Shown: one piece after another, positions 15,874 through 17,075 of the stretch | Numbering within the stretch: the first letter of the stretch is position 1 | Layout of the letters: each line of letters opens with the position of its first letter | DNA from: Candidatus Aminicenantota bacterium | GTDB taxonomy: Bacteria; Acidobacteriota; Aminicenantia; Aminicenantales; Saccharicenantaceae | Length of the DNA stretch: 64,000 nucleotides | NCBI GenBank assembly: GCA_026393975.1 | Contig: JAPKZD010000003.1 | Span: forward strand, 81,481-145,480 | Direction: 5' to 3' | Translations under genes and position numbers: made by a program | The notes under the pieces: model-generated | The model's database searches: none | What the model saw: the letters and a program-made list of their open reading frames with translations, nothing else | Told to the model about the DNA's origin: nothing

Positions 15874-16841
15874 GATTTTCTCCCTTGCTTCTCTTGAGCG
15901 GCGAGGACGCCCCGGACGTAGCCGACGGATTCGGCCAGTCCCGGCAGGGGGTCCCGGCCGTCCTTCTCGTATTCGAAAGCGGCCGTCCCCCGGTAATCCA
16001 TCCCGGCGAGCGTTCGCAGGAAGCGGGGGATGTCGATGACGCCCCGGCCGGCTTCGACGGCGACCAGGTCCCCGGGCTTTACCCGGGGGTCCACTTCCGC
16101 CGTACTCGCCCGTGGATATAAGTCACGGGCGAGTGGCGAGCCGAAGGCTCGGCCCTTGACCGGCCCGCCGTCTTTCGTCCGGGCCGTGACGTCCTTGAGA
16201 TGGACGTCGAGGAGGCGCGCGCCGCAGGCGACCGCCGCCTCCGAAGGGTCGATCCCCGAGCGTTGGCAATGGCCGATGTCCAGGCAGACCCCGATGCGCG
16301 GGTCCAGGTTCTTGACCCTGTCCAGGATGCTCGCCGGCGTCGGGTAGAGGAGGTCGCCCGGTCCGTGGTTGTGGACGGCGAGCTTGATGCCCAACTCGCG
16401 GACCTTCCGCTCGGCGCGGCCGAGGAGCTCGTGGCCGGGGACGCCGATAATGACCTCCATGCCGCCGGCCCGGGCATAGGCGAAGGCCTGTTCGACCTCG
16501 GCTTCGGTAGTCATATAGACGACCCCGCAACCGTAGGGGACGAGGCCGGCCGCCCTGATCTTCGCGGCCGCGGCCCGAATGTCCGTCTCGGAGCTCTCGA
16601 GCGGGAGGTGGATGCTCTTGACGGCGATCCGGACGAGGCCGACCCGCCCGGCCATGGCCAGGGCCGAGTCGAGGTCGAATTCCCGGAAGGTGTAGGAGGC
16701 GAGACCGAGTTCGAACCGCCCCATGACGCGTTCGTCCAGGCCTGTCCGACCCGCGCCGATCCCGGGCCGGCCCATGATCACCGCGCCCGCCAACGCGCCC
16801 ATGGAGCCCTGGACGAAGGCCCGCCGCGTGAATTTTTTCAT
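15870..16841 (-). CDS. Tat-exported sugar phosphate isomerase/epimerase-like TIM barrel, carrying an in-frame repeat insertion
   Basis: A 323-residue protein with a Tat-type leader (TRRAFVQGS, then a hydrophobic run to about residue 30), so it probably acts in the periplasm. The rest is a xylose-isomerase-like TIM barrel: HNHGPGD, CLDIGHCQRSG and DVHLKDV supply the usual metal-site histidines and acids. Between GGPV and VEAGRGVIDIP, where relatives run straight on, about 30 extra residues (228-257) are encoded by a palindromic repeat that also occurs outside genes. The barrel ends normally afterwards, so the gene looks intact. No ribosome site precedes the ATG; the promoter geometry suggests a leaderless message. 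Reaction unknown. Confidence 0.85.
   Translation of the reverse strand: MKKFTRRAFVQGSMGALAGAVIMGRPGIGAGRTGLDERVMGRFELGLASYTFREFDLDSALAMAGRVGLVRIAVKSIHLPLESSETDIRAAAAKIRAAGLVPYGCGVVYMTTEAEVEQAFAYARAGGMEVIIGVPGHELLGRAERKVRELGIKLAVHNHGPGDLLYPTPASILDRVKNLDPRIGVCLDIGHCQRSGIDPSEAAVACGARLLDVHLKDVTARTKDGGPVKGRAFGSPLARDLYPRASTAEVDPRVKPGDLVAVEAGRGVIDIPRFLRTLAGMDYRGTAAFEYEKDGRDPLPGLAESVGYVRGVLAAQEKQGRKS
16070..16160. repeat. Palindromic repeat, copy A, inside a coding sequence
   Basis: A segment of about 90 bases whose 79-base core (16082-16160) matches copy B at 75 positions. It contains three hairpins: CGAGCC-GAA-GGCTCG (16137-16151), an 11-base perfect stem ACTCGCCCGTG/CACGGGCGAGT with a 9-base loop (16104-16134), and CCCCGGG/CCCGGGG (16070-16088). 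It is read through in frame by the TIM-barrel gene on the minus strand, without a stop codon. Confidence 0.9.
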
Positions 16842-16879: not shown

Positions 16880-16935
16880 TTTCGATCAGCCGCCCGCGCG
16901 TCCGAAGGCACCCGCGGGCCTCTCGCGTGTCCTTG

Positions 16936-17075
16936 ACAGCGGCCGGGGCCCCGGGTTTGCCCGCCCTCATTCGCTTCGCGCCTGAGGACTGCAAAGCCCG
17001 GGGGTCCACTTCCGCAGTACTCGCCCGTGGATATAAGCTACGGGCGAGTGGCGAGCCGAAGGCTCGTCCCTTGAC
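16936..17075. repeat. Palindromic repeat, copy B, long intergenic form
   Basis: The right 79 bases (16997-17075) match copy A with four differences. The left part adds a longer arm: CCCCGGGTTTGC (16949-16960) pairs imperfectly with GCAAAGCCCGGGG (16991-17003), enclosing a small CCTCA/TGAGG-type hairpin. CCTTGACA occurs at both ends (16931-16938 and 17069-17076). The terminal TTGACA may serve as the -35 of the gene at 17153. Confidence 0.88.

Follow-up and report, generated by a model that had tools for sequence, protein, structure and literature searches.

The window analysed here, a 64,000-nucleotide stretch of a Candidatus Aminicenantota genome assembled in 25 contigs (2.95 Mb; G000), contains a gene for a xylose-isomerase-like TIM-barrel protein whose reading frame harbours a palindromic element, with a second copy of the element in a nearby intergenic region (Table 1). 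The nearest solved structure to the isomerase is 3LMZ (profile E=1.6e-91, Foldseek E=9e-27). On the minus strand the element reads GTCAAGGG...GCCGTC, and the full-length copies of the same genome share the borders GTCAAGGGACGAG... and ...GGCCGC[C/T]GTC. The original prediction had placed an in-frame repeat at 16070-16160, encoding about 30 extra residues (228-257), with a 79-base core recurring between genes 0.8 kb away. The 95% match between the two cores was reproduced and the insert does lie in frame, but the element is longer than predicted (105 bp, 16056-16160) and contributes 34 residues (229-262). The intergenic copy is likewise real, but its full extent is 141 bp.

Table 1. Position of the host gene, the palindromic element, its hairpins and its second copy in the window
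Feature	Position	Strand	Basis
Xylose-isomerase-like TIM-barrel gene, host of the insert, 323 aa	15870..16841	-	ORF; Pfam PF01261 E=1.7e-17
Palindromic element in full, 105 bp counting the GTC at either end; net insertion 102 bp (residues 229-262)	16056..16160	-	Alignment of own-genome copies; homologue alignment; empty sites of other copies
Hairpin A (GGCCGAGCCTTCGGCTCGCC)	16135..16154	-	Fold; consensus fold of 33 copies
Hairpin B (ACTCGCCCGTG...CACGGGCGAGT), absent from the short form	16104..16134	-	Fold; compensatory change in L057; missing in the same gene of G004
Hairpin C (ACGGCGG...CCCCCGGG/CCCGGGG...CCGCCGT)	16057..16103	-	Fold; consensus fold
Intergenic second copy of 141 bp; its hairpin C holds about 36 bp of another repeat	16935..17075	-	Own-genome matching; copy alignment

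Residues 229-262 are absent from 28 of the 30 isomerase homologues of the same order that were aligned, and both flanks continue cleanly in these proteins; 3LMZ also lacks the insert at the corresponding site. Within this alignment the insert is confined to G000 and its two closest relatives, complete in G010 (whose isomerase is ~92% identical at the protein level) and 39 bp shorter in G004, where exactly hairpin B and its neighbourhood are missing and the frame is kept. The distribution among these sequences dates the insertion, in all likelihood, to the period after the common lineage of G000, G010 and G004 had separated from the rest of the genus but before the three diverged from one another, and hairpin B would have been lost later from the G004 gene, leaving the frame intact. 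The sharing of the insert by these three genomes could also be read as a sign that the 34 residues are native to the enzyme and that the remaining copies are fragments of its gene. This reading is refuted by the insert-free homologues and by 3LMZ, by the recurrence of the same element across numerous unrelated genes and intergenic positions, and by the fact that the copies stop at the borders of the element and carry no isomerase flank, and we regard it as virtually untenable. The same 30 residues in homologues from unrelated genomes, named beforehand as the result that would speak for it, were not seen among the 30 homologues.

The AlphaFold2 model of the isomerase (mean pLDDT 79.9) presents a confident barrel (>90) on either side of a low-confidence segment (residues 222-254, <50), in agreement with the earlier expectation that the barrel would continue normally around the insert. 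The insert comes after strand 210-215 and adjoins the invariant residues G225 and E263-G265-R266-G267, so in the model it occupies a loop that follows a barrel strand, near conserved positions, and spares the fold of the chain; in such a position an effect on isomerase activity is possible. The G004 isomerase gene (L091, G004:C89, 300-880) also lacks residues 97-214, in frame and near the start of the contig, which may reflect either a true deletion or an assembly error. In another genome (G049), a copy (L093, C112:23338-23442) lies at the very end of the isomerase gene, and its first G completes the TAG stop codon.

Folding of the 105-bp element (-63.4 kcal/mol, z = -5.4 against shuffled sequences) yielded the run of three hairpins that had been proposed. 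The two termini of the element, GTCAAGGGACGAG and GGCCGCCGTC, show no complementarity and pairing is confined to the three separate hairpins, with no long terminal inverted repeats in the aligned own-genome copies. Most copies finish at the 3' end in [C/T]GTC, the C of which is paired within the hairpin C fold, while the last bases belong in part to the target. One compensatory change, from T-A to G-C, was found in hairpin B of copy L057, and the consensus fold of 33 copies contained only four double-change pairs and a negligible covariation term, since the copies are too alike. Short forms devoid of hairpin B occur at several loci, keeping the frame, and could have arisen by replication slippage at the palindrome. 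The predicted absence of stop codons in the host frame is correct but says little, given that the consensus is open in five of its six frames and that ~18% of shuffled sequences are equally open, which rules out open frames as a sign of selection.

Hairpins of this strength, together with the proximity of the insert to invariant residues, raise the question of whether the segment is removed post-transcriptionally or passed over by the ribosome, as an intron, intein or bypass element, so that a normal protein is made. In-gene inserts of several different lengths (102 bp, 63 bp and composite) nonetheless maintain the frame and the absence of stops, which would be needless if the segment were removed, and an Rfam search with the element returned no match up to E=1. 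We hence consider removal or bypass highly improbable.

A search of the genome and of its relatives with the core, as the original prediction had proposed, located it at many unrelated places. G000 itself holds ~17 near-full copies in addition to partial ones, and the E-values of 16 further own-genome copies (9e-40 to 2e-26) indicate that the repeat does not arise by chance. The element was detected in a patchy set of 11 of 99 genomes (G000 and 10 of its 98 relatives), at about 20 to more than 50 copies per genome, the two highest counts being 44 and at least 51; three of the carriers (G000, G004 and G010) belong to one genus and the others to two further families of the order. A sample of the phylum produced carriers in 5 of 396 genomes, all from this same order. 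Across 84,980 species genomes, an exact 29-base core was present in at least 110 stretches, which among the matches listed fall in Aminicenantes, in Acidobacteria bins and in one bin labelled Spirochaetes; a 27-base core had no match in viral contigs. The Spirochaetes-labelled match (L238, JAPLSM010000184.1) comes from a lake sample that also yielded a carrier genome, and the bin is probably mis-binned. Copies average 97% identity to the consensus and remain 93-97% identical across families in which the isomerases are only about 55-57% identical. This disparity between the sequences suggests a recent spread of the element, perhaps by horizontal transfer, with strong constraint as the alternative.

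The sequences on either side of copies were joined and used to search the sister genome. This identified 14 clean orthologous empty sites in close relatives, and in 14/14 the net gain is 102 bp for a copy of 105 bp. Counting back from the right flank, the third base is invariably that of the empty site, but the two bases before it often mismatch, having become GT: the target dinucleotide agrees with the empty site in 19/30 cases, compared with 693/764 in the flanks (p=8e-5). GT is found at both junctions, and the right-hand GT is usually followed by [C/G]GA. A 3-bp target-site duplication of GTC was rejected, as the dinucleotide on the left is often not the one on the right and the empty sites hold other dinucleotides. 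In G054 the element is nested in a short-form element (L134, L139), leaving a record of the target site (GAA^GTGGACC). Another copy (L015, G000:C7:51296-51405) adjoins a sequence resembling the 3' half of a tRNA (GGTTCAAGTCC...CGCCCACCA); insertion into a tRNA gene was discarded for this copy, as the joined flanks are not called as a tRNA.

This signature bears directly on the means of dispersal. The size, copy number and intergenic bias of the element are compatible with a classical MITE of a DDE insertion sequence, bounded by terminal inverted repeats and a target duplication, and at about 100-170 bp, with open frames that continue in frame into some genes, the MITE-like ERIC, Correia/NEMIS and YPAL repeats resemble it (PMC2229807). 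Those repeats, however, mostly show target duplications and often TA ends, which were not seen at the empty sites, where a dinucleotide is replaced instead. With no long terminal inverted repeats either, and no autonomous parent bearing the element's ends encountered in a non-exhaustive look, a MITE origin is very unlikely.

An affiliation with REP or CGTC-tagged repeats moved by a RAYT-type (IS200/IS605) tyrosine transposase deserves somewhat more weight, but we still judge it unlikely. The 3' CGTC or TGTC resembles the tag of CGTC-tagged palindromic repeats and of some Rickettsia elements (PMC3733652); such repeats also lie occasionally in ORFs and lack a dedicated transposase, the hairpins fit a single-strand mechanism, and Y1 transposase genes are present in most of these genomes. 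Known CGTC-tagged repeats are nevertheless single hairpins of 20-40 bp with A-T closing pairs, far below the ~102 bp and three hairpins found here, and carry the tag at the opposite end to the CGTC or TGTC of this element. Furthermore, Y1 genes were not found in three carriers (G004, G010 and G064) yet occur in non-carriers, with no correlation between the two; none of six Y1 loci examined has a copy beside the gene, and replacement of the target dinucleotide is at odds with simple IS200/IS605 insertion. No mobilising enzyme was found among the genomes analysed.

Among 91 near-full copies with sufficient flanks, 26 present coding statistics on both sides and on the same strand, and 24 of these are in frame and two out of frame (p=5e-10 against an expectation of 1/3), coding status having been set for part of this tally by codon statistics rather than annotation. 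With a gain of 102 bp, a multiple of three, any copy truly inside a gene should preserve the frame, and what the 24:2 count demonstrates is that many copies lie within genes. The same property, together with the open frames of the consensus, means that most in-gene insertions leave the frame downstream undisturbed and supply 34 extra residues.

The host proteins include LigA, phosphomannomutase, PhzF and methyltransferases, and the insert divides or is spanned by the Pfam domains DNA_ligase_aden (L154), PGM_PMM_II (L132), PhzC-PhzF (L129), PIN_2 (L136), Pyr_redox_2 (L094), Methyltransf_23 (L095, L151), LUD (L123) and GH38C (L128). For at least eight of these copies, a sister genome encodes an uninterrupted orthologue. 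Additional in-gene copies follow signal peptides or start regions (L145, L157, L034, L036, L006 in HypF, and L021/L117 in RibBA). The only LigA detected in G049 is the interrupted one, in a genome that is 86% complete, so that a second ligA is conceivable; LigA is uninterrupted in G054 and G067, and E. coli LigA (2OWO) is devoid of the inserted segment. Insertion is not always harmless: a 104-bp copy (L101, C85:74517-74619) frameshifts the rmlB-like gene of G004, constituting a natural knock-out. All the genomes appear to be metagenome assemblies, and single cases could therefore be assembly errors.

Comparison of orthologous inserts with their surroundings revealed little change within genes. 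The inserts are identical over 105/105 positions in the isomerase (803/867 in the gene) and over 105/105 in hypF (2688/2819), and match at 101/105 in an M64 peptidase (454/519) and at 57/58 in ribBA (278/293). These four in-gene pairs accumulate five differences against ~29 predicted from the flanks (CMH p=8e-6), whereas in two intergenic pairs element and flanks have diverged to a similar degree (170/185 against 502/551, p=0.88). Conversion of the isomerase insert by other copies is unlikely, since this copy has private variants in common with G010, such as the end GGGGACCTGGTCGCCGTC. The contrast, drawn from few pairs, hints that the in-gene inserts may be under constraint. It could be taken further, to an exaptation in which the in-gene inserts are retained by selection and have ceased to be neutral passengers, and both the deficit of differences and the flank-like rate of the intergenic pairs would agree with it. 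The pairs are few, however, and come partly from the same genomes, the host proteins are unrelated, which argues against a common function, and constraint at the DNA level or conversion between copies may account for part of the pattern; exaptation is accordingly a doubtful, if conceivable, extension.

Overall, these results make it very probable that the insert is a non-autonomous mobile palindromic element, dispersed through these genomes, that adds 102 bp at each insertion and resides in frame in genes, and we assign it to a new family of protein-coding palindromic elements. The inserted peptide would be translated and borne as a flexible loop, copies that break the frame or are otherwise harmful would be purged by selection, and movement would depend on an enzyme supplied in trans, probably acting on a folded strand. 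A broader proposal, which we put forward tentatively and hold to be rather improbable as a whole, combines an undescribed insertion mechanism (conversion of the target dinucleotide to GT with an exact 102-bp gain) with purifying selection on in-gene copies, so that the mobile palindrome would act as a recurrent source of 34-residue loops for conserved enzymes.

Palindromic elements residing in frame have mostly been viewed as peculiar to Rickettsia and Wolbachia, which are reduced AT-rich parasites, and in Rickettsia gmk the peptide derived from a Rickettsia palindromic element (RPE) was shown to be translated and the protein to be active. RPE (Ogata et al. 2000) are reviewed in PMC2229807 and PMC10969869, and PMC3767692 also deals with their behaviour. 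The element described here resembles them in its size (105 bp, against 100-150 bp), in its palindromic, stable stem-loop fold, in combining intergenic copies with in-frame copies in unrelated conserved genes that have insert-free orthologues, in its several open frames and in having no known mobilising enzyme. It differs in being GC-rich, in forming three separate hairpins rather than a single long stem bounded by terminal inverted repeats (given as about 12 bp for RPE in the table of Delihas, and not found here), in gaining exactly 102 bp and carrying GT at both junctions, and in its phylum, the exact core occurring outside Aminicenantes, among the matches listed, only in the one probable mis-bin. 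The anticipated likeness to RPE is thus borne out in behaviour: by this comparison the element appears to work like an RPE and is not classed as one, the analogy implying no demonstrated common ancestry. In-frame insertions of palindromes are also known for ERIC, Correia and REP repeats (PMC2229807, PMC3733652), and Rickettsia is therefore not the sole parallel. A search of the literature on Aminicenantes or Acidobacteriota, in which subscription journals were thinly covered, found no description of such an element.

In uncultured Aminicenantes, a small hairpin-rich mobile DNA is often lodged in genes and would add 34 amino acids to their products without breaking them. The same behaviour in a GC-rich and very probably free-living phylum suggests a general route from mobile DNA to added coding sequence. 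Unlike in the older cases, the copies are young enough and the empty sites numerous enough to show directly how insertion proceeds, which targets are used and how far individual proteins tolerate it, and the interrupted ligA of G049, apparently the only copy in that genome, offers a ready test of tolerance.

Other repeats accompany the element at several loci. Hairpin C of some copies, including the intergenic copy of the window, L013 and L107, encloses a second short palindromic repeat of ~36 bp (GCCCTCATTCGCTTCGCGC...GAGGACTGCAAAGCC); the L107 copy apparently lies in frame inside a gene. The G004 locus matching the intergenic copy of the window also holds a copy, with different hairpins. A further repeat (GGGGTTAACCCTGAGCC... 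CCCCGCCTTGAAAGGCGGGG) adjoins several own-genome copies, in the flanks of L007, L011 and L013.
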